Shown here piece by piece: positions 272 to 14,769 of a stretch of 17,352 bases of DNA (within the stretch, counting starts at the first letter, position 1; each line of letters begins with the position of its first letter). This DNA is from Phycisphaerae bacterium (lineage in GTDB: Bacteria; Planctomycetota; Phycisphaerae; Tepidisphaerales; Tepidisphaeraceae). Position numbers and translations under genes: made by a program. Under the pieces are notes generated by a model that saw only the letters and a list, made by a program, of their open reading frames with translations, was not told the origin of the DNA and did not search any database. Location of the stretch: NCBI GenBank assembly GCA_030448225.1, contig JAUJNJ010000046.1:1-17352 (forward strand), in the 5' to 3' direction.

Positions 272-3212
272 TCACTTCTTGATGGGATTCTTAAGAAAGG
301 CAATGAGGTCCGCCAGGTCTTGATCCTGTAGAGCGGCCTCGAAGCCGTCGGGCATCAGGAGCGGTCGAAAGCCGTCGAGGGACTTGAGGGCGGCGGGAAA
401 GGGTTTGTTCCCGACCGTCGAGACCCTTCATGCTGGCCGTGTCGCTCTCGGTCGTGATGATGCCGAAGACGATTTCCCCCGCAGACGGCGTGGCGGTGTA
501 GGCGAGGTAGCGGGGCTCGACCAGCCGGTTCGGATCAAGGATCGCAACGTGCTTGCCGCCTGGGGGTTCCACCCGCTCACGGAGCGGAGGTCCGGCCCAA
601 CGTCTTGGCCCTTGTCGCCGAGGCGGTGGCGCGGCTGCAGTGCTGCGTAGCGAACCGCACCCCCCGCCGCGTCGCCGACCAGCGGCGAGCGCGCCCGTCG
701 CTTTTCCACCACCTTCTGCCGGCCGGCGGGGTCGAGGTTGCCGAACAGTTCTTTCGCGAGTGCATGACGGCCCCCGCCTTGTGGGCGAGAAGCCGCTGCC
801 GGCGCGACGCGCCAGCGCTGCCGCAGACTCAATTCGTCCGCTCTTCACCTCCCGCAACGGCTGCCACCGCCCAAGCTTCTCGCCCCAACAGAGACTCGAG
901 CACCGCCGCCCGCGTTTGCGGCGACCGCGACGACCAGCCCATCGTGAGCAGGCGCGGGGTCTGGGGGTCACCGGTTCGCACGATCGCTCACCGCCGCCAC
1001 CTGGACGTCCCGCGGGGTCCGCGGTTCCAGCGGCCCGGCGAGCCACTGCAATTCCGCCGAATCGCGATCCGCCGCCGGGCGGTGCGGCGATGCCAGCAGG
1101 CCGATCGCCGAGCGATGGGAGGAGGAGCGGTCGCGTCAGCGGCGACGATCTTCGCGGCTCCGAAATTTTGTCCCGCGCCCGACAACCGCTCCCGCCAGTT
1201 CATCGTCCGCGGATTTCCTCAAGCCCGACAGCGTCGTCCGCCGGGCGTCGAGCTGCTCCAAGAAGCGGGCGAAGGCGACGAGGGACGCGCCGTCGGTCGA
1301 CGTCATGAGCGGTTCGAGCAGCGCGGCCGCCGCCGACCGATCCTCCCATGCTGCCGCGACCGCGATCAGGTTGTCACGCAGCGGATCACTCACCGGCCGA
1401 CCCGCCGCGACGATGGCTTCCCGTCACCGCGCGGGCGCACGGCTTTGCGGAACTGGCGATGGCGGCAATCATCAGCGGATCGTCGCGCACGCTGGCCGCG
1501 AGCGTCGCGATGGCACCGGCCGCCGCGGGCGTCGCCCACTCGCCGAGCGTGAGCGCGACCGCCGGACCGCCGGGTCGGGGTCATCTACGAGCACCGCCGT
1601 GCGGGCGATGAGGTCGGGTTCGGCGGGGTTCATCGCTTCGGCTAACCGAATCGCCTGACGTCGGACCGAGGCGTCCGTGTCGGCCAGTGCCGCGGCGATC
1701 GCTTTCCGTCGAGCGGCTCGAGTTCGCGAAGCGTCCAGAGGGCGTGAGACGCGACGGCGTCGCCACTTCGGCGGGCCATTATTTTGAGCGGCTCGATCGC
1801 GGCGGGGTCGCGGCGGTGGAGCAACAGGCGGCACGGGCCGTATCGCGCTGCCACCTGTTCGGCCGTTCGAGTGCCTCCACGAGCGATGGAGTGTCGGCGT
1901 CGCCCAGCGTTGGTAGGGCGGCCGGGCGACCGCCCTTGGGGTAGACGCGATAGATCCGCCCGCGGTCGTGGCCGTCGCGGAAGAAGCGCGTCATCTTCTC
2001 CTCGCCGCCCGGCGGGAGCCACTGGGGGTGCTCGACGAGAGGTACCGGTACATGTCGACGACCCAGAGCCGCGCCGTCCGGCCCGACGCGAAGTCATCAC
2101 CGCGGAACCACATGTCCTCCGACGCCAAGAACTCGCTCCGCTGCTCGGCGGGCGCGCGGGCGGCGGTGTAGCTGGGCCGTTGTTGTCGGTCAGGACCGCG
2201 TGGTGCACGAGGTTGTGGACCGGCTCGCACGCGAATGCGGCGGACGCCGGGCACGCGCGGGAACAGGAGCCGCGTCGCGGTAGAGCGTGGGGGAGCAGGC
2301 CGACGTGAAATGCGGGGTGGCCGGGCGACGCCTGCGTGCGGTCGAACTGTTCGCGCGTTGCTCCGCGCGAAGACCGGGGCGTTGGCCGGCAGGATCAACT
2401 GCCGCCTCGGGTCGAACGCGGCGTGCGGGTTGCGGCGGAGGTAACGGTCCTCGATCGCGAGGTGAAACAGCGGGAAGCTGTTGTGACACCCGAACCAGTT
2501 CGACGTCGTCGCGGTCGCGGCCGAACTGCGAGGGCCGGCGATCAACTCCATGTCGCCCGTGTCGGGCTTGATGCGGATGTCGCGGCCGTCGAGCTTCAGC
2601 GTCTTGTTCGCGGATCGGATCGCGCATTCCACGCCGCTCGTGCCGCTGGAGCAGATCCACCCGTCGAACCCCCATCGCGGCGCGTTGACGCGGAGCCGAG
2701 GGGAGTTTACGCTGCCGGCCGCTGAACAGCGTCGCGGACGTCGATCTTGCCGTCATCGTTCGTGTCGCCGGCGTAGAAGATTTCGCCGGCGGCGGTCACG
2801 AGCACGCCGTCGCGCCAGGCGGCGACGCCGGTCAGCACGCGCACGCCGTCGAGCAGGACCGTCGAGGCGTCGGCGGCCGCCGCGCGTCCGTGTCGCGTGT
2901 GCAACGGATCCGCCCGCCCGCCTTGCGCTTGCCGTCGACGCCGGTGGGTAGTCGGCCATCTCCGCGACCCAGAGCCGGCCGTCGGCATCCCAGTCGATCG
3001 CGACCGGGTCCATCACCATCGGCTCGGCGACCACGAGTTCCACCGCGTAGCCATCGGTGACGTGGATCGCGCGTAGCGAATCCGCCGGCGACATGGGTTC
3101 GGACGTGCGCCGCGGCGCTTGGCGGGCTGGCCGTCGACGCGGCCGAGGCGAGGGTGCCGCAGAGGAAAGCCGTGAGCAGTCGACGGCGGGGCCGGCACTT
3201 CAGGTCATTCAC
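272..3212 (-). CDS. PVC-type membrane-bound dehydrogenase with HEAT repeats and cytochrome-like C-terminus (multiply frameshifted)
   Basis: This is a secreted, probably periplasmic redox protein of the large PVC-superphylum family that joins a glucose-dehydrogenase-like beta-propeller, HEAT repeats and a C-terminal haem-binding domain; its substrate is unknown. The GTG start at 3212 has GGAG six bases upstream and begins an Arg-rich, hydrophobic signal peptide (VNDLKCRPRRRLLTAFLCG). Family motifs then appear in alternating frames: YAVELVVAEPMVMDPVAIDW and GRLWVAEMADYP (about 3060-2940), IFYAGDTNDDGKIDVRDA (about 2780-2720), IKPDTGDMELIAGP (about 2575-2530), YLRRNPHAAFDPRRQ (about 2445-2400), FLASEDMWFRGDDF (about 2130-2090), DRGRIYRVYPKGG (about 1970-1930). 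HEAT-like segments fill about 1800-1140. The C-terminus holds HRLGDKGQDVGPDLRSVS (about 630-575), ILDPNRLVEPRYLAYTATPS and the closing DLADLIAFLKNPIKK before TGA at 272-274. At least ten frame changes are needed. A clean CXXCH haem motif cannot be read near 620-645, where bases seem to be missing. I infer sequence errors rather than decay. Confidence 0.8.
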
Positions 3213-3257
3213 GTTTCGCTCCAACTCCGCGGCCAGGGGCCCGCCGAAGATCGAAGG

Positions 3258-3356
3258 GAACCACAACTTACGCGGATAACACAGATGACGACGACCAACG
3301 AGAAGAATGTAGTTGTATCGCGTGGCGACCCCGATCATCCGTGTAGTCTCCGGTTC
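3258..3356. repeat. Imperfect inverted repeat, 'GAACCACAA...ACACAGATG' class
   Basis: The left arm reads GAACCACAACTTACGCGGAT then AACACAGATG (3258-3287). The right arm (3336-3356) reads CATCCGTGTAGTCTCCGGTTC, close to the reverse complement of the left arm with gaps. The spacer is about 48 bases. This resembles short dispersed intergenic repeats of many environmental bacterial genomes, often mistranslated as spurious proteins. It sits just upstream of the dehydrogenase start and overlaps the 3' end of the ceramidase-like gene. Confidence 0.55.
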
Positions 3357-4989
3357 AGCTCTCCTCCGTGCCTCCGGGCCTCCGTGTCGGGGTTCAATTC
3401 CTTCCCCCGCGATCCCGTCATCACGGCATCATTCCAACTCCGGTGGTTGATCGCCGTACCGCCCGCGTCGCGCTTGAACGGCTTGGCCGGCGGCGGGGTG
3501 GGGACGTCGCCGGCCTCGAACCGGCCGGCGAGGGCGATCAGCCGCCTCGGCGATCTGTCGCCCGGCGCTAACCTGGTGGTTGCTGTAGCTCGTGAGGCGG
3601 CATCCCGCGGCCGCCGGCGGGGCTCATGGCTTCTTTCGGTCGGGACGTAGCCGACGCAGTCGTTCGCGAGCGAGACGGGGAACGTCGGCGGGAATTGTCG
3701 ACTTCGCCCGGAGGTCGAGCCCGAACTGGCAGAAGTATTCCGACGGGTTGGCGAGCAGCACGACCGGACCCACCTGGATCGCCTGCACCTCGACGCCGAC
3801 GGTCGGCTGCTTCTTCACGAGGTGGTCGAGCATCACGGTCTCCTTCGCGAAGATCCAGTCAGTCCGATCGAGCTTTGCCGGTGGGTCCTTGCTCACCTTT
3901 TCCATCGCCGCCGCCACCTTGCTGCGGCTCGGCGGGCGGCGCTGATCTGCAACGTCTCGCCCGCGGCCGCCACCGGCATGCTCGCCCGCGGCCGGGCGAA
4001 GGTCGACAGCAGGACTTCGCCGCCCCGCCCCGACCCGCCCGCCGACGAGTTCCGCCGCCGCCTCGCCCGACTGCTTGATGTCGTACGGCGTGCGGTTGTC
4101 CACCTGCGTCACGTCCTCGCGCACCTGGCCGGCGGTGAAGACGACGATCACGTGTCGCCGAAGAGCTGCGGATGCACTTCTCGACGTAATGGACGTAATC
4201 GGCCGACGTGCCGCCCGGCCCGGTGGTGGCGTGGCAGGCGAAGTTCACGACGCAGCCGAGCAGCTTGCCCGTCGTCGGCGCCCTCCACGCGCCGATCACG
4301 CCGACGTGCGGGTCGATCGGCCCGGCCGGCTCGACGATGTCGGGGTTGCTGGCCGCGGATGCGTGAACGTCGTCCCGTTCTTCATCCGGAACCGGCGATT
4401 GAACGAGACGGCCGCCTCGGAGCCGGAGCCGGCCGCGCGCGGGCGCCGCTGTGCCGGCGGCCGTCGGCCTCCACGACCGCGTCGGCGATCGCGGCCTCCA
4501 GGCGGGCGAGGTATCTCGCGTCAGCGCAGGACGACTTTTCGTACGCAAGGCGTTTCACGAGGTCCGGCGCGTCGCCGTACTCGCCGGGCAGCACCATCCG
4601 GTCGGGCCGCCGGAGTGCGAGTGCGAGGCGGCGATCATGACCCGCCTGGCTCGATGCCGCACCGCGCGGCGATCGCCTTGCGCGCGCGCGTCGACCGACG
4701 GCCGGCGGATCATCGCCGCGTCGACGCCGACGACCGCCACCCGCGACCGCCCGTCGCCGAACACCGCCGCCCGCACCTTGCACGGGTCGTGGCGCGCGCG
4801 AACTGCTTCATGTAGTTCCCCGGCTGCTCCATGCCGAGGTCCGGCGTGACGTCGCGGCCGGCGAAGCCGGCTTGAACGCCGGCGCGGCCGCCGCCCGGCT
4901 TGGCGTCGGCCGCGGCGCCGGGTGCCGAGTTCGCCACCAGCAGCAGGGCGAAACGAGCGTTGCGAATCCACGCTATGCGGACGCCGCAT
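3335..4989 (-). CDS. Secreted neutral/alkaline ceramidase-family hydrolase (frameshifted)
   Basis: This is a homologue of neutral/alkaline non-lysosomal ceramidases (Pfam PF04734 family), zinc amidohydrolases that split N-acyl sphingosines; planctomycete members are mostly uncharacterised, so the substrate is open. ATG at 4989 follows GAGG eight bases earlier. After one frame change a signal peptide reads RNARFALLLVANSAPGAAA. Next come GFAGRDVTPDLGMEQPGNY (about 4860-4810), KVRAAVFGDGRSRVAVVGVD, and IAASHSHSGGPTG (about 4645-4605), whose His-x-His matches the family zinc site. NFACHATT (about 4245-4220) supplies another expected zinc His and NPSEYFCQFGLDLRAKS (about 3755-3700) the expected Glu. 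EDVTQVDNRTPYDI (about 4115-4075) lies where ceramidases have GDVSPN, so the nucleophile serine appears to be Thr. FPVSLANDCVGYVPTE, LTSYSNHQVSAGRQIAEA and RFEAGDVPTPPPAKPF close the domain. At least six frame changes occur. The last codons lie in dispersed repeats, so the true end could be nearer 3420. Confidence 0.75.
3361..3400 (+). repeat. 'CCTCCGTGTCTCCGTG' dispersed repeat, copy A
   Basis: CTCCTCCGTGCCTCCGGGCC followed by TCCGTGTCGGGGTTCAATTC is the first of three copies in the window; the others are at 13086-13114 (reverse) and 13224-13255. Each copy lies after a CATCC motif, here at 3336-3340. This copy runs into the 3' end of the ceramidase-like gene, where it would encode the last residues before TGA at 3335-3337. 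Confidence 0.65.
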
Positions 4990-5409
4990 TGCCGATCCTC
5001 CGCGTCGTCGCCAGGTTCTTTCCCGATACGTTCTACCGATTCCCGCGCGGCGACGCACGCATTTTGGGCGTGACGACCAGGGCGTGCCTCACAACCTCTG
5101 CCGGTAGTGGCGACGCCTGCGTCGCGGTCGACGCGCAGCGGCGAATCTATCGCTCGGGACTTGTGGCTGCGCACAACCGCGACGGGGGCCGCCGCCACTA
5201 CGAGGTGTAAGACAGCCCCAAAAGCCAGCGCCTCGGGAGCACGCGCTCGGTTCCCCCTCCGCCGGCGTTCCGCCTGCTTGGACTTGCGCATGCACCGACG
5301 TCCCGCAGCTGCTCAATGTCGGGACCTTCCGTGGCGGGCGAACGTCCTCGGTACGATTAGCCGTGCGAGGGGGGGTGCGAGTCGGCGGGCATTACGACGA
5401 GGGGTCCTC
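4990..5409. promoter_or_regulatory. Divergent intergenic region between the ceramidase-like and glycosidase genes
   Basis: About 420 bases separate two divergently transcribed genes, so promoters for both should lie here. A possible sigma-70 -10 box for the plus-strand gene is TACGAT at 5352-5357, about 52 bases before the ATG at 5410; no convincing -35 box lies 17 bases upstream. A minus-strand frame from 5291 has a hydrophobic patch (FGAVLHLVVAAAPVAVV) but no good ribosome-binding site or recognisable family, so I do not call it a gene. Confidence 0.35.
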
Positions 5410-7964
5410 ATGGTGCAACGTGTGACACGAGTGCGGCGTTGTCTCGCCCCGGCGACGGCCATATTCACGGGGCTGTTCCTGCTCGCCGCCGCCGCGTCGG
5501 GCGGGCCGGAGGTCCGCGTGCTCGACAAGCAGAAACTCCTCGACGCCCAAACCTTCTGGGACAACCGCGACTGGGACTGGTACCGCCAGCACATCCCGTT
5601 CCTCGACACGCCCGATGCCGACGTCAACACCACCTACTACTACCGCTGGGAACTCGTCGAAGCACCTGACGTACGGCTCGCCCGACTCCGGCTACGCGTA
5701 CACCGAGTTCATCGACCGGCCGTTCTGGTCCGGCGCGTACGGGGCGATCAGCTGCCCGGCCGGTCATCAACTGTACAGTGCGCTGCTGCGCGAGCCGCGC
5801 TACGCCCGCGACTACGCCCGCTACTGGTTCCGCACGCCCGGCGCGCAGCCGCGGCGGTACAGCACGTGGCTGGCGGACTCGGTGTGGGCCGTCCGCAGGG
5901 TGCACCCGGACGACCGGTTCGCGATCGACCTGCTCCCGGACCTCGTGAAGAACTACGACGGCTGGGAGCGGGACCATTTCGTCCCCGACGTCGGCCTGTT
6001 CTGGCAGACCGGCCACGACGACGGATGGAGTACAACATCAACAGCCGCCAGACGCAGGACATCGTCCGCGCGCGCCCCGGCTTCCGCCCGACGTTCAACG
6101 CCTACATGTGGGCCGACGCCAGTCGAGCGGATCGCCCGACTCGCCGGCGACGAGGCGCTGGCGAAGCGATTCGCCGCCAAGGCCGCGTCGATCAAGGCGA
6201 ACGTCCAGCAGAAACTGTGGGACCCGAAGCGCGAGTTCTTCTTCCACATGTTCATGGGCGACGAACAGCGCGACGGCTTCGCCGTGGGGGCGCTGACGCT
6301 CACGCACGAGAGCGGCCGCTTCGCCGGCAGCGCGTTCGGGCGCGAGCAGATCGTTCGTGCCGTGGCAGTTCAACCTCCCGGACGCGGGCAAGGGGTACGA
6401 GGTCGCCTGGCGCACCCTGATGGACCCGACCCGCTTCTTCGCCGAACGCGGGCCGACCACCGTCGAGAAACGGGACCCGATGTTCCGCCTCGTCAAGACG
6501 TGCTGCTGGTGGAGCGGCCAGTCCTGGCCCTACGCGACGACGCAGACGCTCGAAGATGGCGCAACCTGCTGCAGAACTACGAGCAGGACGCCGTCAGCCG
6601 GGCGGACTACTTCAAGCTGCTGAAGGTCTACACGCTCACCCACCGCAAGGACGGCCGGCCCTACATCGCCGAGAAGCGCGCACCCCGACACCGGCTCGTG
6701 GGAGGGTCACGACAGCTACAACCACAGCGAGCACTACTTTCACTCCCGGCTACACGGACCTGATCCTCACGGGCCTGATCGGCCTGAAGCCGCGGAACGA
6801 CGACACGCTGGAGATCGACCGCTCGCTGCCGGGTGGGACTACTTTGCAATCGAGGACGTGCCGTACCGCGGCCGCCTCGTGGGCGTCGTGTGGGACCGCG
6901 GCGGCGGGGCGTACGGCGTGGGCCAGGGCCTGCACCTCTTCGCCGACGGCGTGAAGATCGCGTCGGCAGACCAAGTGCAAAAGCTGAGTGCCGCGCTTGC
7001 CGGCGAAAGGCGGCACCCGCCGAAGTGCCCGCGACGTCGACGTTGACCAACTTCGCCGTGAACAACGAGGGGACCTACTTCCCCCGCGTCACCGCCTCGT
7101 TCACGGCCGCCGAGACGTCGGTGGGCAAGCTCGTCGACGGCAACTACTGGTACCACCGCTCCCCGCCCAACCGCTGGACGACCGCCGGTTCCGCCTCCGA
7201 CCGCGACTGGTGCGCGGTCGACTTCGGCACGAAGCGGCCGATCCACACGGTCAAGCTCTACTTCCTGGAGGACGAGAAGGACGTCGCCGCCGGAGGCGTT
7301 CGACCTGGAGTATTGGGACGGGCGGTCGTGGGCGCCTGTCCCCGCCAGCAACGCACGCCGGACAAACCGGCCGGCCGGCGGGCGAACGTGGTGCGATTCC
7401 CGGCGATGGAGGTGGAGAAAGTGCGGCGACGTTCACGCACCGACGAAACGCCCGCACCGGCCTGACCGAGTTCGAGGCGTGGGGCGACGCGACGCTCCCC
7501 GTAGCCCCCGCGCCGCCGCCCGCCGGCAACCTCGCGTACAACGCCGGCGGCAAGCCGTTCGAAGGCGTCGGCGTCGTTCACGTCGCGGTTCGACGACGTC
7601 GCCCTCGCCAACGACGGCCGCATCGTCTTCTCGCCGTCCCCCAACAACCGCTGGACGAGCTTCGAATCGCCGAACGCCACCGACTGGCTCGAGATCGACT
7701 TCGGCAGGCGACGTCGCCGCGTCGAACTCGCCCTCTACGACGACCGTGGCGGCGTGAAGGCCGGCCGACTACCGCGTCCGAACTCTGGACCGGCGACAAG
7801 TGGACGCCCGCCGCCAACGCGACGCGCAGCCCCGCCAAACCCGCCGGCGGGCAGATCAACGAGGTGCGGTTCGACGAGGTGAAGGCGTCGAAGGTCCGCG
7901 TCTCGCCTTCACCCACGCCGGCCCCGCCTGCAGCGGCGTGACGATCCTTGTCTGGCCGGAGTGA
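5410..7964 (+). CDS. Secreted MGH1-like (alpha/alpha)6 glycoside hydrolase with two C-terminal discoidin-like modules (frameshifted)
   Basis: The protein looks like an exported glycosidase of the MGH1-like six-hairpin group, which resembles GH63 and trehalase folds; substrate is unknown. ATG at 5410 follows GAGGGG by five bases and opens a signal peptide with core IFTGLFLLAAAASGG. The catalytic region shows FWDNRDWDWYRQHIPFLDTP, YYYRWELV, GSPDSGYAYTEFIDRPFWSG, YSTWLADSVWAVRRVHPDD, TFNAYMWADA, KLWDPKREFFFHMFMGDEQR, VPWQFNLPDAGKGYEVAWRT and WWSGQSWPYATTQTLE (about 6510-6560). It continues with NLLQNYEQDAVSRADYFKLL, GYTDLILTGLIGLKPRNDD and VPYRGRLVGVVWDRGGGAYG, an order typical of the family. 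Two beta-rich modules follow, about 7040-7480 (PRVTASFTAAETSVGKLVDG, NRWTTAGSASDRDWCAVDFG) and about 7530-7964 (NRWTSFESPNATDWLEIDFG), like F5/8 type C carbohydrate-binding domains. The end reads VTILVWPE then TGA. About a dozen frame changes occur, for instance near 5660, 6022, 6122, 6352, 6557, 6680, 7010, 7290, 7575 and 7705. Its likely role is glycan trimming at the cell surface. Confidence 0.8.
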
Positions 7965-8069: not shown

Positions 8070-10334
8070 GTGCGAATACGCGCGCCTGCCTCTTCCTCCT
8101 TCTCCTCGCCGCCACGACCGCCGCCCGCGCCGAATCGCCGCTGCCGGCGAGCGCGCGCGCGCCCGCCGGCTGCCCGTCCGCACTTCCCCGACCGGATGCA
8201 CGCGTTCGTCTGGCGGAACTGGAACCTCGTGGAAACCGAACGTCTCGCGGGTGCTCGGGACGACGCCGCAGAACGTGGCGGCCGTCGCGGGGTCGATGGG
8301 GCTCCCGCCGGCGCGGCCGGTGCCGCCGGCGTACGAGTCGCGGCTGTACCTGTCTCTCATCCGCCGCAACTGGCACCTGCTGCGTACGAGCAGTTGCTGA
8401 CGCTCCTCGACTGGACGCCGGCGCCTGGCCGAAACCCTGCGGGAGGACGACTTCCTCTGGATCAAGCTCTCGGCAGCGTCAAGCCGGCGTGCGAGCCGAT
8501 CACCTACGCGCCCTGGCGAGCCGCAGCGACGCGCGCGGCGGAGATCCGCCAGATCGTGAATGAGGCGATCGGCGAGAAGCGCCGGGCCGGCGAGGAGCGG
8601 TTGGCCTTTCTGAAGGAATTCGCCGCGCGGTCGCGTAGCCGCGCCAGGGGCCGGACGCGCCACGGCGTGCGGTTCCTCTACTCCTACTTCGCCGTCTTCG
8701 GCGACCCACTCGCCGACGCGTCGCTCGACCCATACCCAGACGCGGCTGCTCCAGCTTACGCCGACCTCGGCGTCAACGGCGTCTGGCTCCACGTCGTCCT
8801 CCGCCGCTCGCCGTCGGCCGACTTCCCGGAGTTCGGGCAAGTGGTCCGAGCGGCGGCTCGCGAACCTCCGCGCAAGCTTGTCGCCCGCGCCCAGCGCTTC
8901 GGCATCGACGTCTACCTCTACACGAACGAGCCCCGCGCGATGCCCGCCGTGTTCTTCGAGCGGCGGCCGAACTCGCGGGCGTGCGCGAGGGGGACCACGT
9001 CGCGATGTGCACGTCGCAGCCGCTCGTTCGGCGGTGGCTGAGCGATTCGCTCGCACGTCTTCCGCGCCGTGCCCGACCTCGGCGGCGTCTTCACGATCAC
9101 CGCGTCGGAGAACCTCACGAACTGCGCGTCACACTACGGGCACGCCGGCTGTCCGCGGCAAGACGCGGGACGCCGCTGAGATCGTCGCGGAGGTGAACGC
9201 AGCGGTGGAGGCGGGCGTCCGCCGCGGCAGCCCGGACGCGCGTGTCATCGCGTGGGACTGGGGCTGGAAGGACGAGTGGGCGGTCGGACGCGATCAAGCG
9301 GCTGCCGGCGGGCGTCGAGTTCATGTCGGTCAGCGAGTGGTCGCTGCCGCTGTCGCGGGGCGGGGTGGCGGCGACGGTGGGGGAGTACTCGCTGTCGGCC
9401 GTCGGGCCAGCCGCGCGCGACGAAACACTGGACGGCCGCCAAGGCGCGCGGATTGCCGCGGGTGGCGAAGGGTGCAGCTCAACAACACGTGGGAACTGTC
9501 GGCCGTCCCGTACCTGCCGGTGATGGACCTGGTGGCGGAGCACTCGCGCCCGCCTCGCCGCGGCCGGCGTCGACGGGATGATGCTGAGCTGGTCGCTCGG
9601 CGGCTACCCCTCGGGTCCTCGACCTCGCCCGCCGCTTCCGCCAGCCGCCCCGTCCCGACGACAGCCGCCGTCCTCGACGCCCTCGCCGCCGAGCGGCTTC
9701 GGCCCCGCCGGCGCGCCCCACGCCCGCCGCGCGTGGACGGCGTTCAGCGCCCGCCCTGCGCGAGTGCCTGTTCGACGCGTCGGTCATCTACCGCTCCCCG
9801 GTCCAGCAGGGCCCCGCCAACCTGCTCTGGCCGAAGCCGACCGGCTACGCGTCCACGATGGTCGGCCTCCCGTACGACGACCTGAAGGGCTGGCGCGGCC
9901 CCTACCCCGCCGCGACGTTCGTCGCGCAGTTCGACAAGGTCGCCACCGCGTGGCACGCCGGCCTGCCCGACCTCGAGAGGGCCGCGAACCTCGCGCCGCC
10001 GGAGCGCGCGGCCGACGCCCAGGCCGAACTCCGCTTCGCCCACGCCGCCGCGCTCCACTTCCGCAGCGTCGCCGACCAATCGCGCTACGTCATGACCCGC
10101 GACGCGCTCGCCGCCGCACCGACCGCCGCCGACCGCCAGCGCCTCGCGGCGGAACTCCGCGAAATTCTGCGCGCGGAAGAAGCGTCGGCGAAGGCGCTCT
10201 ACGCACTGGCGTCGGCCGACTCGCGCATCGGTTTCGAGGCCTCGAACCACTACTACTACGTCCCGCAGGACCTCATCGAGAAGGTGCTGAACTGCCGCCA
10301 CCTCGCGAGCGCGGATGCCGGAATCGTGCGGTAA
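8070..10334 (+). CDS. Secreted putative TIM-barrel glycoside hydrolase, GH20-like (frameshifted)
   Basis: I do not recognise a named family with certainty. The architecture resembles a large exported glycosidase with a TIM-barrel core, as seen in uncharacterised planctomycete and verrucomicrobial proteins related to GH20-like hexosaminidases. GTG at 8070 follows AAAGGG by five bases. Allowing one frame change it gives a clear signal peptide, ACLFLLLLAATTAARA, which decides the start over the GTG at 8064. Readable segments are DRMHAFVWRNWNLVE (about 8195-8240), LRRNWHLL region near 8365, FLYSYFAVFGDPLADASLDP (about 8670-8730), YADLGVNGVWLHVVLRR, VARAQRFGIDVYLYTNEPRA (about 8880-8940), GVFTITASENLTNCASHYGH (about 9083-9140), ARVIAWDWGWKDEW, VQLNNTWELSAVPYLPVMDL and GVDGMMLSWSLGGYPS (about 9565-9615). 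The helical C-terminal part (9850-10334) is in one frame and ends TAA. At least eight frame changes occur upstream. No catalytic acid can be assigned safely. It probably shares a role with the preceding glycosidase. Confidence 0.65.
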
Positions 10335-10378
10335 CGCGCGCCCGGACGAGCCCGCGCGGCGGCCGCACGACGAAGCGG

Positions 10379-10460
10379 AAAGAGGTTCAGCGGCCGGGCG
10401 GACACCGAACCGCATCCTATTTACGGGAACCGCACGCTCGCCCGGCCCTGCGGCTACCTC
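10379..10460. repeat. Imperfect palindrome after the zinc-ribbon gene, possible degenerate attC-like site
   Basis: GGCCGGGCG (10392-10400) pairs perfectly with CGCCCGGCC (10439-10447). The flanks GAGGTTCAGCGG and CTGCGGCTACCTC extend the palindrome imperfectly, and CTA within the right flank is the stop codon of the minus-strand zinc-ribbon gene. The motif TCAGCGGCCG resembles TCAGCGGGCG and TCAGTGGCCG in the two palindromes between neighbouring small genes. It could equally be the terminator of this small gene. Confidence 0.4.
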
Positions 10461-10724
10461 CGCGTCCAACTTTGGTTGAGCAGGTCGAGCGCGATGTGCT
10501 TGATGCTCGGGTCTCGCTCGAACTCCGCTATCAGCGCTTTCTCGGCGAGGTACTTTCGCCAGAACATCGCCCAGGCCCGTTCGCGCTTCGGTGAGGGGAC
10601 CCGAATTCTTCCAGTGAACGTGCTCGCACGGCACCTTGCACTGCGGGCAAAGGACGGCGCGTACGGATTGGTCTTTCCGCTGCGACTTGCGGCACTGAAG
10701 ACATACCCAGGTTCGGTTGCTCAT
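10454..10724 (-). CDS. Small zinc-ribbon protein (one apparent frameshift)
   Basis: An 89-residue protein results if one extra base in AAGAATTCGG (about 10603-10609) is removed. It begins MSNRTWVCLQCRKSQRKDQS and carries Cys8-x2-Cys11 and Cys26-x2-Cys29 plus Cys33, a four-cysteine zinc-ribbon pattern. A basic-amphipathic helical half follows (RAWAMFWRKYLAEKALIAEF ... IKHIALDLLNQSWTRR) and ends at TAG. Without the frame correction the reading continues for hundreds of bases as low-complexity Arg/Ala sequence, which supports the correction. Such ribbons bind nucleic acid or partner proteins, but nothing here shows which. The start lies ten bases after the conserved core of a palindrome, as is usual for integron cassettes. 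No family name is assigned. Confidence 0.65.
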
Positions 10725-10733
10725 GGCGATGTC

Positions 10734-10828
10734 GCACAACGTGAGGCCGATCAGCGGGCGGCGCATCACCCGGCCATCGAACTACAAACTACCGTCCCCG
10801 GCCGGTCCGCTCCGACGGCAGGTTAGTG
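10734..10828. repeat. attC-like imperfect palindrome 1 between small genes
   Basis: On the plus strand the outer boxes are GCACAAC (10734-10740) and GTTAGTG (10822-10828). The inner boxes are GTGAGGCCGATCAGCGG (10741-10757) and CCGCTCCGACGGCAG (10807-10821). The arms are imperfect inverted complements with bulges, and CCGGCC/GGCCGG inside can extend the stem. Total length is 95 bases, within the range of integron attC sites. The TAA stop of the upstream minus-strand gene lies inside the GTTAGTG box. The core of the inner box recurs at 11071-11087. The outer boxes fit the GTTRRRY consensus only approximately. Confidence 0.5.
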
Positions 10829-11005
10829 GGCCCGGCTCCGATACCAAATCACGAGAACGACGCCTACAACCATGACCACCGCCTCCGCGATGAACTGCTT
10901 CGCGAAGTCCGACAGATCCTGCTTCCAATCGGCCGGCGCTTCGTCCACGGCATCGCCTCGCGGTGACTCGTGTTCGAATACCGTCTGCGATGAGGCATCG
11001 CGCAC
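10823..11005 (-). CDS. Small single-span membrane protein, 60 residues
   Basis: GTG at 11005 is preceded by AAAGGA with a seven-base gap, which decides this start over the ATG at 11056. The product starts with a polar, acidic segment (DEAPADWKQDLSDFAKQFIA) and has one membrane segment at about residues 38-54 (AEAVVMVVGVVLVIWY), followed by a short basic tail RSRAH. That charge pattern predicts a tail-anchored protein with its basic C-terminus in the cytoplasm or a short N-out protein; topology is uncertain. No family is recognised. The gene is intact and flanked on both sides by related palindromes, as a mobile cassette would be. Confidence 0.6.
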   Translation of the reverse strand: MRDASSQTVFEHESPRGDAVDEAPADWKQDLSDFAKQFIAEAVVMVVGVVLVIWYRSRAH

Positions 11006-11063
11006 GGAGCTATCCTTTGGCTGACGGCGTCGACGAAACGGGAGACGTCGGTGCATCCGGCCC

Positions 11064-11163
11064 CACTAACGTAAGGCCGATCAGTGGCCGAGCCCGCGCG
11101 ACGCCGGCTCTCGAACCGCGGGAGTGTACGCGCCGGCTCCGTCCGCTGCATCGGCGGGCTATG
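11064..11163. repeat. attC-like imperfect palindrome 2 between small genes
   Basis: On the plus strand the left boxes are CACTAAC (11064-11070) and GTAAGGCCGATCAGTGG (11071-11087). The right box CCGCTGCATCGGCGG (11143-11157) gives CCGATGCAGCGG in reverse complement, matching CCGATCAGTGG with one extra G, which recalls the unpaired base of attC L boxes. GAGCC/GGCTC extends the inner stem. The outer right box GCTATG is weak. The left 24 bases match 10738-10757 closely, so the two palindromes are copies of one element type. The site starts 16 bases after the stop of the minus-strand gene at 11179. Confidence 0.5.
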
Positions 11164-11178
11164 CCCCGGTCGTGCGTG

Positions 11179-11520
11179 CTACAGGTTTCCGCCGATCGCG
11201 AAGTGGAACGGCAAGCCCAGGAACAGGATCAAGGCGAGGGCGACGATACTTGCGACGATCGCAGCCGCGGTGGCTAGGCCGACGTGGGGCGAACCGTCGG
11301 ACTGGCGCAACAGTCCTGCGCCGCCGACGCCAACCGCGAACGGGAACAGCAGGATGAGCCAGTCGAAGTGGTGGATTTGCGACGGCGCGAACCGCACGAG
11401 GACGAAGTCGAGGCCGCACCAAGCGAGGAACCCGAGCGCTGCGCCCCCAAACGCGACCAAGCAGAACCGCCCAGCCATTGGGGGAGGTGCGGGGGCGACG
11501 GTCTCGTGCTCGAGGGGCAT
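11179..11520 (-). CDS. Small membrane protein with three predicted spans, 113 residues
   Basis: ATG at 11520 opens a 113-residue product beginning MPLEHETVAPAPPPMAGRF. Three hydrophobic segments are visible: about residues 17-43 (CLVAFGGAALGFLAWCGLDF), 52-71 (DWLILLFPFAVGVGGAGLL) and 80-104 (GLATAAAIVASIVALALILF). It ends FHFAIGGNL then TAG. GGAG lies eleven bases before the ATG, rather far; an in-frame ATG at 11589 would add an Arg-rich leader that looks non-coding. No family is recognised and no catalytic motif is visible. The gene is intact and is the first of the three small minus-strand genes in reading order. GTTATGC overlaps its start codon and GTTAAC lies at 11643-11648, so a weaker palindrome may bound it upstream. 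Confidence 0.65.
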   Translation of the reverse strand: MPLEHETVAPAPPPMAGRFCLVAFGGAALGFLAWCGLDFVLVRFAPSQIHHFDWLILLFPFAVGVGGAGLLRQSDGSPHVGLATAAAIVASIVALALILFLGLPFHFAIGGNL

Positions 11521-11846
11521 AACCGTTGATTCTCCGGCCCGCGGGCGCCGGATAGCGCTGCGGCGTCGCGGCAAGCCTCGCGCGCGCAAGGGCCGTCGTC
11601 AAGATGGTTATCGGTCGGTTCCCGCGGACTTGGCGGTCGGACGTTAACCTGCGCACGGCCGCCGGGCGGCATGATATTTGGCGCTCCGGCGTCGATGCGG
11701 CGGGCGGCGGGCGGCGGTCGTCGGCCGGCGCCGCGTAGCCCGTTGCGGCGCCACGCGCGGCCGGCCCCGCGTCCAGGATAACGCCGCCGGACCGGCGCAG
11801 GATATCGTGCGGGCGCGGCCGCTCCAGCGGCGGGTTGCGCAGCGAT
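11521..11846. other. Intergenic, GC-rich, no confident gene
   Basis: Long frames cross this stretch but their translations are Arg/Pro/Ala-rich without motifs. Two compact palindromes are present: CGCCGGACCGGCG near 11782 and GCCGCTCCAGCGGC (11816-11829). The second lies about 18 bases after the stop of the possible small peptide gene at 11847. I see no promoter that can be supported. Confidence 0.4.
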
Positions 11847-11948
11847 CTACTGCGGCTCCCTGTAGAGGTCCACCAACATGAAAAACAGGAGGGGTAGGAT
11901 CGCGCCACGGCCACGACGGCGAATGCGCACACCGGCACGCGCCCACAT
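11847..11948 (-). CDS. Possible 33-residue membrane peptide
   Basis: A short frame starts at ATG 11948 and ends at TAG 11847-11849. The product begins MWARAGVRIRRRGRG, continues AILPLLFFMLVDLY and ends REPQ: a strongly basic N-terminus and one short hydrophobic segment with an abrupt polar end. Such composition differs from the Arg/Ala-rich noise in other frames here. GGAGG lies twelve bases upstream of the ATG, farther than usual. It could also be the C-terminal remnant of a longer broken gene. No family is known to me. Confidence 0.3.
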   Translation of the reverse strand: MWARAGVRIRRRGRGAILPLLFFMLVDLYREPQ

Positions 11949-12083
11949 CGGGAGCGGTCGCCTCCGCGCGGCCCCCTCGCACGCTGCGCGGAATCGTGGC
12001 GGGCGCGGCGGTCCGCCGTCGCGGCGGGGAAAGGGGCAATGACTCGTGCGGGGTGCCGGCCGAACGCCAGCCTGTCATCGCGT

Positions 12084-13046
12084 TTAGTGCGCGTCCGGTT
12101 CCAGCGGCCCCGCCAGTTGGCGCACGAAGAAGAGGCGGCCGGCCATCGTGGGCATGAAGGAGGAGGGGATCCAGGGCGTCGGGCCGTACTGGAGGGTGAC
12201 GCAGAGGCTCATGCCTTGCCAGCAGGCGCCGCGGTCGGGGTAGACGCCGTCGGCGCCGCCGATGCAGAAGTCGCTCTGCAAAAACAGGCCCGGGCCGATC
12301 GTGTTGGCGAAGCAGGGGATGAGCGTGAAGCGGCTCATGAAGCTGTGCAAGCTGTTCTGCTCCACCGTCAGCGGGTGCAGCGCGACGCCGAGGCGGTGCG
12401 TCTGGCGGCGCCATTCGCCCGCGTCGTACTCGCCAGCGAGTTGCGGCTCCCAGAACGCGATGTGGCACACGCGGCCGATGCCGTACACCGTCACGAGCCG
12501 GGCGCCGCCCGTCTTCAGCGCGGCGATCTGGGCGCCGTAGGTCGGGAGGTTCTTCCGCGTCGCGAAGTTCCGCTGCGCGGGCGGGACGGTCAGCTTTCCG
12601 AGCGGCGCGAACAGCGCGCCCGCCATCGCGTGCTCGAACCCGCCGGGCTGGTCGCCGGGCATCGTGTCGCCCCTGGCGTCGGACCACTCGTCCATGTTGA
12701 ACGTCGTCACGTGGTCGCACGGCGTGCGGCTCGCTTTGAGGCGCTTCACGACCGTGGCGTACATCCCCATCGGCCCCACCGGCAGGATGATCGCCAGCTT
12801 GCGGCCCGCGCGGCGGGTCTGCTCGACCTCGTCGGCGATCGCGTCGCCCATCCGCCGGTCCATCTCCGCCACGTCGCGCACGGCCGCGGGCTTGAAGTCG
12901 TCGTGCCAGTGTTTCGTCGGCTGAAGCACGCCGCGCAGGCCCATCGCGCAGCACTTGTCGATGCGGCGCAGGTCCCAGCCGGCGGGGTAGAAGTTCTCGA
13001 GCAGCGAGCCCTTGAGCGTGTTGATGAGGTTGAGCGATTTGGGCAT
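12084..13046 (-). CDS. NagB-like glucosamine-6-phosphate deaminase/isomerase homologue
   Basis: The 320-residue intact product belongs to the NagB/RpiA/6-phosphogluconolactonase superfamily, whose NagB members convert glucosamine-6-phosphate to fructose-6-phosphate and ammonia in the cytoplasm. Visible motifs are a phosphate-loop-like LPVGPMGMY (residues 88-96), FNMDEW (116-121; NagB has FNMDEY with a catalytic Asp) and GIGRVCHIAFWEP (189-201). NagB has GIGxDGHIAFNEP there: His195 and Glu200 are kept, but the Asp two residues before the His is replaced by Val. The C-terminal third (LTVEQNSLHSFMSRF, TIGPGLFLQSDFCIGG, GMSLCVTLQYGPTPWIPSSF) parallels NagB helices. ATG at 13046 is chosen because the 18 codons upstream are encoded by dispersed repeat. 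No clear ribosome-binding site is seen. A PIG-L deacetylase gene precedes it in the same direction, which suits amino-sugar use. Given the changed active-site residue, a related isomerase role is possible. Confidence 0.75.
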   Translation of the reverse strand: MPKSLNLINTLKGSLLENFYPAGWDLRRIDKCCAMGLRGVLQPTKHWHDDFKPAAVRDVAEMDRRMGDAIADEVEQTRRAGRKLAIILPVGPMGMYATVVKRLKASRTPCDHVTTFNMDEWSDARGDTMPGDQPGGFEHAMAGALFAPLGKLTVPPAQRNFATRKNLPTYGAQIAALKTGGARLVTVYGIGRVCHIAFWEPQLAGEYDAGEWRRQTHRLGVALHPLTVEQNSLHSFMSRFTLIPCFANTIGPGLFLQSDFCIGGADGVYPDRGACWQGMSLCVTLQYGPTPWIPSSFMPTMAGRLFFVRQLAGPLEPDAH

Positions 13047-13085
13047 ATGCGTTTCGGTGAGGTGCTCGGTCGTTCGGGGGAAGTC

Positions 13086-13114
13086 GAACCACGGAGACAC
13101 GGAGACACGGAGGT
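13086..13114 (-). repeat. 'CCTCCGTGTCTCCGTG' dispersed repeat, copy C (inverted)
   Basis: GAACCACGGAGACACGGAGA followed by CACGGAGGT is the reverse complement of the copy at 13224-13255, so the two form an inverted pair around about 110 bases. GGATG at 13141-13145 is the reverse of the CATCC that precedes the other copies. It lies 40 bases upstream of the NagB-like start and may affect its expression. Confidence 0.65.
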
Positions 13115-13189
13115 CGGAAGAGAAAGCGAGAACGGAAGATGGATGAATTGACCATGGCGGAAGCCGTAGCCAGTGCGATGCTGCGTGTT

Positions 13190-13255
13190 CATCCGTGTTC
13201 CACGACTTTGGTCTTCTCCTCTTACCTCCGTGTCTCCGTGCCTCAGTGGTGAATC
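13190..13255 (+). repeat. 'CCTCCGTGTCTCCGTG' dispersed repeat, copy B
   Basis: CATCCGTGTTCC (13190-13201) is followed after about 22 bases by ACCTCCGTGTCTCCGTGCCT then CAGTGGTGAATC (13224-13255). It pairs with copy C at 13086-13114 and matches copy A at 3361-3400 in order of motifs. It lies between the PIG-L stop at 13288 and the NagB-like start at 13046. Confidence 0.65.
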
Positions 13256-13287
13256 TTCTTCCGCCCGTGCGACGCCGTCATCCCAGC

Positions 13288-14061
13288 CTACCGGGGGCCG
13301 AGCGCGCCGAACAGGTCGGCGAGGAGGTCGGCCTGCGGGAACGCGTGGCCGCGGTGTTGGACGAACGCCTCGGCGGCGGCGACGCCGACCTGGCCGCCGC
13401 GGTGGGCGGCGTGGCGTTTGGTGGCGTCGATGTACTCGTCCATGCCGTGGTGCGCGCGCAGCCACTCGCGCTGCGACGCGTGGCAGGCGAGCATCGCGAG
13501 CTTTGTGTCGAGCACGCCGCTGACGTCGACGTAGACCGTGGGGCGGACCTCGGTGCCGAGCGGGTCGAGGCCCTCCACCGGGTCGCAGTAGTAAAGGTGC
13601 GGGATACGACTGGCGGCCAGGAGGGGAAAGGCGGACACGTTCGGCGCGCCGTAGACGAAGCTCGCGCACCGGGCCATGAGGTGGGCCTGCTCGTGGTCGA
13701 GCATGTAGTCCTTCACCGGGTGGGCGAACACGAGCGCCGGCGCGACGCGGCGGAACAGGTCGATCGCCTTTTGGGCCGTCTCGCGGCTGTAGACGACGAG
13801 GCCGTCCGGCTCGTCGAGGCAGTGATAGGTCGCGCCGATCATCTCCGCCGCCCGCCGGGCCTCGGTCGTGCGGATTGCGCTGATGTCCCAGCGGTTGTGG
13901 GTCATCGTGCCGCAGTCGCCCGGCGTGGCGGTGGCGATGTGGACGACCCAGCCAAGTTTAGCGAGCAGTGCGAGCGTGCCGCCGCAGAGGATCTCCGCGT
14001 CGTCCGGATGGGCGAGGAATGCGAGTGCGATGTTGGGCGGGTGGGTGTTGGTGTCGGACAT
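13288..14061 (-). CDS. PIG-L (LmbE-like) family zinc deacetylase
   Basis: The intact 257-residue protein is a PIG-L family N-deacetylase. The family removes acetyl groups from GlcNAc-containing substrates such as GlcNAc-inositol, bacillithiol and mycothiol precursors and chito-oligosaccharides, using one zinc ion. FLAHPDDAEILCGGTL (residues 15-30) supplies the zinc-binding His18 and Asp21 and catalytic Asp20. FAHPVKDYMLDHEQAH (112-127) supplies the second His cluster. TTEARRAAEMIGA (65-77) is the usual helix after the second strand, and no signal peptide is seen, so it is cytoplasmic. ATG at 14061 is chosen over the upstream frame, which is Arg/Thr-rich and lies in non-coding DNA; GCAGG nine bases upstream is a weak ribosome-binding site. 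It is followed, 241 bases downstream and across an inverted repeat, by a NagB-like gene. The pair suggests deacetylation of an N-acetylated amino sugar followed by deamination or isomerisation. Substrate cannot be told from sequence. Confidence 0.85.
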   Translation of the reverse strand: MSDTNTHPPNIALAFLAHPDDAEILCGGTLALLAKLGWVVHIATATPGDCGTMTHNRWDISAIRTTEARRAAEMIGATYHCLDEPDGLVVYSRETAQKAIDLFRRVAPALVFAHPVKDYMLDHEQAHLMARCASFVYGAPNVSAFPLLAASRIPHLYYCDPVEGLDPLGTEVRPTVYVDVSGVLDTKLAMLACHASQREWLRAHHGMDEYIDATKRHAAHRGGQVGVAAAEAFVQHRGHAFPQADLLADLFGALGPR

Positions 14062-14339
14062 GCGTGGGTGCCTGCGTCGCGAAGTGGATCGGTTTGTGTC
14101 GGGGGTCTCGTCGGCATCGCGGGACCTGTTTAGCAGGCTCGCTCGCGAGCCGCGTCGGACGGTGCTGGTCCCGCGCGGAGCGTGGCAAATTAGTTGCGCC
14201 CGTCGCTCCAGCCGCGTTTCCCCGTTGTACCCACAAACCCCCGCGCGCGTCGAACGGAGTGGCACGTGCAGCACGCGGCGCGTGACACTGAGATCGGCGC
14301 GGCGCGTTCGGCGTGCCAGGGACGCGAAGCGCTGTTGTC
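14062..14339. other. Intergenic leader of the PIG-L gene, no gene seen
   Basis: The minus strand of this stretch should hold the promoter of the PIG-L gene. I see no consensus -35/-10 pair that I can defend, no tRNA and no convincing reading frame. It ends at the first of three C-rich palindromes. Confidence 0.4.
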
Positions 14340-14380
14340 CCCTCTCCCCCGTACTCGGGGGAGAGGGTTAGGGTGAGGGG
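14340..14380 (+). repeat. C-rich palindrome, copy 1
   Basis: CCCTCTCCCCCG (14340-14351) and CGGGGGAGAGGG (14356-14367) form a perfect 12-base-pair stem with loop TACT. The tail TTAGGGTGAGGGG (14368-14380) follows. Copy 2 is the same element in opposite orientation. This type of short palindrome is widespread between genes in GC-rich environmental bacteria; function is unclear. Confidence 0.75.
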
Positions 14381-14484
14381 CCGAATGGGGAAAGTCGTGC
14401 AGGTGGTGGAGGGACGGAGTGCTCAAGCGCGCGTAGACGTTTTGCGACGCCACCCTGCCATGACGTGACCATTTCTCTGTCCCG
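14381..14484. other. Spacer between palindromes 1 and 2
   Basis: About 100 bases lie between oppositely oriented palindromes. No gene, RNA or promoter can be supported. Confidence 0.35.
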
Positions 14485-14525
14485 CCCCTCACCCCTGCCC
14501 TCTCCCCCGAGTACGGGGGAGAGGG
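14485..14525 (-). repeat. C-rich palindrome, copy 2 (inverted relative to copy 1)
   Basis: The head CCCCTCACCCCTG (14485-14497) matches the reverse complement of the tail of copy 1. It is followed by CCCTCTCCCCCG (14498-14509), loop AGTA and CGGGGGAGAGGG (14514-14525), again a perfect 12-base-pair stem. Copies 1 and 2 thus form a larger inverted repeat around about 104 bases. Confidence 0.75.
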
Positions 14526-14676
14526 AGCAAAGCGTTTCGCTGGTAAAGGCGTTCGATGTAAGGAGGCGTTCGCCAAGAGGACTCTGCTCGGTCGGCTCTC
14601 CCGTCTGCTCCGCGGACCGTCTCGGGTGAGGATCGCGCGACCGTCGGCCCCAGTGCAGGAACGTCAGCGGCGAGAG

Positions 14677-14717
14677 CCCCTCTCCCCTGCCCTCTCCCCA
14701 GCGTACTGGGGAGAGGG
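14677..14717 (-). repeat. C-rich palindrome, copy 3, also a candidate terminator of the helicase gene
   Basis: The head CCCCTCTCCCCTG (14677-14689) is followed by CCCTCTCCCCA (14690-14700), loop GCGTAC and TGGGGAGAGGG (14707-14717), an 11-base-pair stem. The stem has a compensatory change relative to copies 1 and 2 (terminal A-T instead of the outer C-G), which suggests the stem itself is kept. It lies about 50 bases after the helicase stop and could end that transcript. Confidence 0.7.
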
Positions 14718-14769
14718 AGGTCGCGAGTCATCGGGCTTGCCGTGACAGATCACAGATACCCCGCGCCCT

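Follow-up and report, generated by a model that had tools for sequence, protein, structure and literature searches.

A probable short integrase-less integron cassette array in a planctomycete-like genome

Integrons capture genes by means of attC, a recombination site that takes the shape of a hairpin. Integron cassette arrays without an integrase (CALINs) are an established and rather frequent type of element. In PMC9024848, they are described as common arrays of at least two attC sites placed head to tail, with small genes on the same strand between them and an integrase not found nearby. The average is put there at almost six attC sites per CALIN, and IntegronFinder 2.0 calls a CALIN once two or more attC sites are present (PMC9024848). 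PMC8618304 proposes that CALINs originate by off-target insertion, through the loss of intI, or by rearrangement; it also places binding on the bottom strand of attC and lists Planctomycetota among the phyla with integrons. A Planctomycetota-specific attC model exists (PMC8352920). Given these published integrons and this attC model, the element that we describe belongs to a known kind. It differs from the chromosomal integrons of Planctomycetota, in which related sites adjoin intI, while no intI was matched in the 17,352 bases around it.

The element lies in a stretch of 17,352 bases (hereafter the window), whose host is probably a planctomycete. We give a probability of about 93% to the reading that it is a short CALIN in a planctomycete-like genome, smaller than the average one; the strand, the cutting and the origin that go with this reading are what we infer from it. 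On the minus strand, from 11523 down to ~10366, imperfect palindromes are interspersed with three small genes (Table 1). The presence of three small minus-strand genes had been claimed in an earlier note made from the letters of this DNA, and it holds after correction of their lengths and frame. The core that the note saw in both palindromes is borne out as well: CCRCTGATCGGCCTNACGTT occurs in two exact copies, at 10738-10757 and 11068-11087, both on the minus strand. Allowing up to three mismatches, the window contains two matches against 0.04 expected, a count that 0 of 200 shuffles reached. The two sites start 336 bases apart on the same strand.

Table 1. Positions in the window of the array, its predicted sites and its neighbors, with related arrays of other genomes in the last row (R1 and R2: covariance models, see text)
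Feature	Position	Strand	Remarks
GTTATGC box	11517..11523	-	contains the ATG of cassette gene 1; from sequence
Cassette gene 1, 113 residues	11179..11520	-	three hydrophobic stretches by inspection
Predicted attC site B	11061..11165	-	R1 69.3 bits, E 4.2e-18; R2 68.8 bits, E 6.8e-16
Site B, R'' and L''	R'' GCATAGC 11164-11158; L'' GCCGAT(G)CAGCGG 11155-11143	-	from sequence
Site B, L' and R'	L' CCACTGATCGGC 11087-11076; R' GTTAGTG 11070-11064	-	from sequence
Cassette gene 2, 77 residues	10823..11056	-	ORF; one hydrophobic stretch near the C-terminus by inspection
Predicted attC site A	10731..10829	-	R1 56.1 bits, E 2.7e-14; R2 49.8 bits, E 5.3e-11
Site A, R'' and L''	R'' CACTAAC 10828-10822; L'' GCCGTC(G)GAGCGG 10819-10807	-	from sequence
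Site A, L' and R'	L' CCGCTGATCGGC 10757-10746; R' GTTGTGC 10740-10734	-	from sequence
Cassette gene 3, zinc-ribbon-like	10454..10724	-	CLQC...CPQC by inspection; frame broken near 10610
Candidate site D	10366..10471	-	hairpin where cassette gene 3 stops, without GTT core
Array neighbors, one side	12084 to 17232		gene without name, PIG-L, helicase
Array neighbor, other side	ORF ending at 10334		
Arrays in genomes without an integron integrase match at E≤1e-30	L063-L066 (G001); L071-L072 (G004); L067, L069, L070 (G005)		

The earlier note had suggested searching the genome for the core; a species-genome collection was scanned with it as an exact pattern, and 21 stretches were recovered. Seven of them (L002, L008, L009, L011, L014, L015, and L016, with L011 and L015 from the same genome) share a single type of long hairpin, ATAACCCGCCGATGCAGYGGACCG ... 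CGGCCRCTGATCGGCCTYACGTTA; six of these records are titled as planctomycetes and the seventh, L016, as Krumholzibacteriia. The other 14 stretches gave no match to model R1 (described below) at E≤0.05, the best reaching 14.6 bits with E 0.27 under default filters, and the core looks like a chance string in them.

The covariance model R1 was built on a MAFFT alignment (A1) of ten sites taken from the seven hairpin records, with no window sequence among them. A wider model, R2, was made of 39 sites of other genomes, again with no window sequence. The source sites of both models are of planctomycete type and were retrieved through the window's own core, hence selected by their right half; left halves, stems, and pairing were absent from the search pattern. 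R1 matches both window sites end to end, in the layout R''-spacer-L''-stem-L'-spacer-R' (scores in Table 1). With filters off, the next best of the 54 R1 matches listed for the window has 19.3 bits, and R1 finds no further attC site above 20 bits in the 17,352 bases besides A and B; the third R2 match falls from 68.8 and 49.8 to 15.6 bits. We thus take the two palindromes to be attC sites, as predicted by models that hold no window sequence and as the earlier note had read them, which an IntI would recombine.

Pairing is conserved in the family. In A1, the R and L stems are paired in 94.2% of cells, and nine cells changed on both sides compared to 2.3 for shuffled alignments (a count reached by 0 of 500), with a weaker signal for further pair types (5 versus 3.4; 19 of 500). 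The 39-site alignment showed 72 such cells versus 21.6 (0 of 500; slid controls 12-17), although it was fitted to R1 and is therefore biased toward the model. One G and one A of the left arm are unpaired and invariant throughout A1, and both are retained at sites A and B; the extrahelical G of site B lies at 11149, in L''. Standard pairs are formed by 17 of the 19 modelled pairs in site B and by 15 of 19 in site A, where three of the four failing pairs sit in the middle of the L stem. It is these model matches and this covariation, and not folding energy, that make the case for attC: plain DNA folding showed no gain against shuffles (z −0.74 for B and +1.14 for A). Rfam at gathering thresholds had no match anywhere in the window, and hence speaks neither for nor against attC.

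The consensus of R boxes is RYYYAAC/GTTRRRY. Each of the four boxes of the window (GCATAGC, GTTAGTG, CACTAAC, and GTTGTGC) departs from it at one or two positions, a deviation already seen in the earlier note; for instance, R'' of site B ends in AGC rather than AAC. Strong palindromes with unremarkable plain folding energies, in a window that contains other palindromic repeats (14335-14719), could be imagined as an unrelated hairpin family, i.e., a terminator or a REP/MITE-like repeat lying by chance between small genes. We find this barely credible, because the conserved extrahelical G and A, the unpaired spacers, and the AAC/GTT ends speak against it, as do the one-strand arrays, the stop codons placed in the box, and the physical link to intI in other genomes (see below). 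No terminator-like match falls on site A or B. An ordinary terminator was also rejected as a candidate: the single terminator-like match in 10200-12100, where 1.1 are expected, is at 11658, off the sites. The earlier note had named what would count against its own reading, a lack of attC matches and a core behaving like a common terminator or REP-type repeat; neither was observed.

The anatomy around the two attC sites is that of integron cassettes, with one small gene per attC, all in the same orientation, and stop or start codons beside the R boxes, the attC of gene 3 being a candidate. In gene 1, the ATG (11520-11518) sits inside the GTTATGC box, read as 11523-11517, and the stop codon TAG (11181-11179) is found 13 bases ahead of site B. 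Its 113-residue product has seven relatives besides its own entry, of 113-145 residues and 61-74% identity; five of the seven are also 113 residues long, one has three additional N-terminal residues and one is longer by 32. In gene 2, the TAA (10825-10823) lies inside R'' of site A (10828-10822). The earlier note was right in placing a stop codon in this box, but the gene to which it gave 60 residues is in reality an ORF of 77 (10823-11056). For the 77-residue protein we found a single relative (74% over 65% of the query). Neither this protein nor the 113-residue one has a Pfam family at E≤1.

Gene 3 starts close behind a box, as had been claimed, yet its ATG follows the end of GTTGTGC (10740-10734) by 9 bases and not by ten; its stop codon TAG is at 10456-10454. 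We call it frameshifted near 10610 because an 85-residue relative holds both pieces in one frame, and the frameshift could be either an assembly error or real decay. The second zinc-ribbon piece has two relatives, one of which is this 85-residue protein, itself without a Pfam family at E≤1; the first zinc-ribbon frame of the window is likewise without one at E≤0.001. As accessory cassette cargo, small membrane proteins and zinc ribbons would be plausible.

At both ends of the array, the earlier note had proposed weaker candidate sites. The left one (10379-10460) corresponds to site D, which starts at the stop codon TAG of cassette gene 3, the place at which one would expect an attC. Its matches are weak (R1: 13.7 bits, E 0.048, rank 5, over 10375-10461; R2: 15.6 bits, E 0.03, rank 3), so that it is perhaps a decayed attC following this gene, and at best that. 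The right one, which joined GTTATGC (11517-11523) to a box at 11643-11648, had to be given up: the region 11510-11652 (candidate C) gave no match to R1 up to E 10 or to R2 up to E 5. Judging from its sequence, the GTTATGC box at 11523-11517 may form the outer boundary of the array.

Sites of this family form arrays in other genomes too. Of six genomes examined that carry them, five have at least two R1 matches on one contig, while G002 has single R1 matches on two contigs, the first of which (L008) is accompanied by another, weak match of 23.0 bits. We fetched 11 arrays from five genomes, comprising 43 sites out of 46 matches; the set omits three single sites (L016, L031, and L032). Within each array every site is on one strand, and sites are spaced by a median of 573.5 bases (347-3580). 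Of the 32 intervals between sites, 29 have their longest ORF on the strand of the array, and in 12 this ORF has a stop codon whose last base immediately precedes the C of R'' AAC, like in site A. In one array, L067 (G005:C209, 1255-2234), the three sites are evenly spaced at 437 bases, which may reflect the duplication of a cassette.

The hairpin family is physically linked to intI in other genomes. Among 199 Planctomycetota genomes, in which up to 20 candidates per genome were scored with R1, sites were matched in 26 (E≤0.001), and the integron integrase model TIGR02249 in 40 (E≤1e-40), of which 33 exceed the cut-off. Both occur together in 12 of the 199 (one-sided Fisher p 0.0011, or 0.0007 after dropping G001, which had been selected for its site), leaving 28 of the 40 intI genomes without an R1 match and 14 of the 26 R1 genomes without such an intI match. 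In seven of the 12 double genomes (G102, G109, G112, G156, G161, G176, and G191), site and intI are 0.75-6.4 kb apart on one contig. Of the six site-carrying genomes, two have TIGR02249 above the family cut-off; at G002:C148, intI and a divergent attC are separated by 0.64 kb. When 20 intI loci were fetched with 1.5 kb flanks, 12 had an R2 match at E≤0.01 and eight did not. G112, G191, and G002 have intI and site in divergent orientation, and in G102, G109, G156, G161, and G176 the two are parallel; such 'inverse' integrons are known. The TIGR02249 loci G002:C148 and G112:C11 have attC sites matched by the same model as those of the window, with the difference that an integrase stands beside the site there, while the window has sites only.

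Indeed, a tblastn search of all 17,352 bases with one planctomycete IntI gave nothing at E≤10, in line with the earlier note, which had seen no integrase. A complete integron would have intI and attI beside the array; the tblastn search gave no intI in the window, and no outer site was detected at 11510-11652. Two attC sites and no intI match in the window fit the definition of a CALIN, and the attC models, the cassette anatomy, and this absence all support the array of this type that the earlier note had suggested. We consider it very unlikely that the array instead terminates a complete chromosomal integron with its intI beyond the 17 kb, in which case it would be no true CALIN. Sites of the same family are found up to ~6.4 kb from intI on one contig (G109 and G176), and the contig of the 113-residue protein's own entry, with 41,584 bases, extends past the window; yet other genes bound the array on both sides (Table 1), and the window gave neither an additional site above 20 bits nor a match to intI.

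Taken as a CALIN, the array would consist of two attC sites, perhaps joined by a third in decay, that delimit three small cassette genes in the same direction. Each attC would fold as a single strand, the bottom strand being presumably the plus strand of the window. IntI cuts at R'. An IntI tyrosine recombinase could therefore cut the present sites at the GTT of R' and move the cassettes. As for its origin, the array most likely arose through off-target insertion by an IntI whose gene sits elsewhere in the genome, or was severed from its intI by loss or rearrangement. To us, its shortness and its conserved neighbors make insertion by an IntI elsewhere, or rearrangement, likelier than the decay in place of a large integron.

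The neighbors provide a point of comparison. Among 294 Planctomycetota genomes, the closest relatives of the gene at 12084-13100 were found in G226 (71%) and G204 (70%), which suggests the phylum of the host. G204 has an intI above the cut-off, together with four sites of the same attC family in two pairs, while G226 had neither a site match nor an intI match at the limits used. In both genomes the gene pair at 12066-14046 (PIG-L and its neighbor) is conserved, and similarity stops at 12066, on the side of the array. No attC was found at the corresponding place in G204 or G226, and no empty site could be delimited in them; for G226 this is a weak test since its contig ends ~0.9 kb beyond. From the sequence comparison, the break at 12066 would fit an insertion or a rearrangement at this point.

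The arrays of G001 are spread over four contigs, and in G001, G004, and G005, whose attC arrays lie on different contigs, no integron integrase was matched at E≤1e-30. The G001 arrays in particular raise the idea that this Planctomycetota attC type seeds many small integrase-less clusters across the chromosome by off-target insertion, the array of the window being one of a dispersed set and not the relic of a single integron; we hold this extension to be tentative and rather unlikely. Two N-terminal fragments of intI were also observed: at L068:1727-2073 (G006:C207), spanning ~residues 22-105 of the G003 IntI, with an attC-like match of 26.5 bits, and at L032:1294-467 on the minus strand (G003:C588), spanning ~residues 25-233, with one of 24.8 bits. 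Both run into or end near the attC-like match, as if cut by a recombination site, and hint at a route of integrase loss.

A phage or plasmid origin was considered and rejected, as 10440-11540 has no match in phage or plasmid collections (blastn, E≤1e-5). Two viral contigs contain the core string and R2 finds no site in them at E≤0.01; no viral contig encoding a relative of the 113-residue protein was found.

An unaided reading of raw sequence had here spotted diverged attC sites that Rfam gathering thresholds do not flag. What comes out of following it up is a planctomycete-type attC model, three small cassette proteins with no Pfam assignment, and one more CALIN, useful for understanding how integrase-less arrays arise in Planctomycetota.

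Three other features of the window were recorded. An MGH1-like glycoside hydrolase region (5107-6763) extends across overlapping frames, and the window sequence may hence carry indel errors. Between the PIG-L and helicase genes, a palindromic repeat, CCCTCTCCCC...GGGGAGAGGG, is present in three copies (14335-14530 and 14676-14719). Finally, a 59-base repeat with the motif CACGGAGACACGGAG is found at 13066-13124 and, inverted, at 13214-13272, the two copies being 75% complementary.
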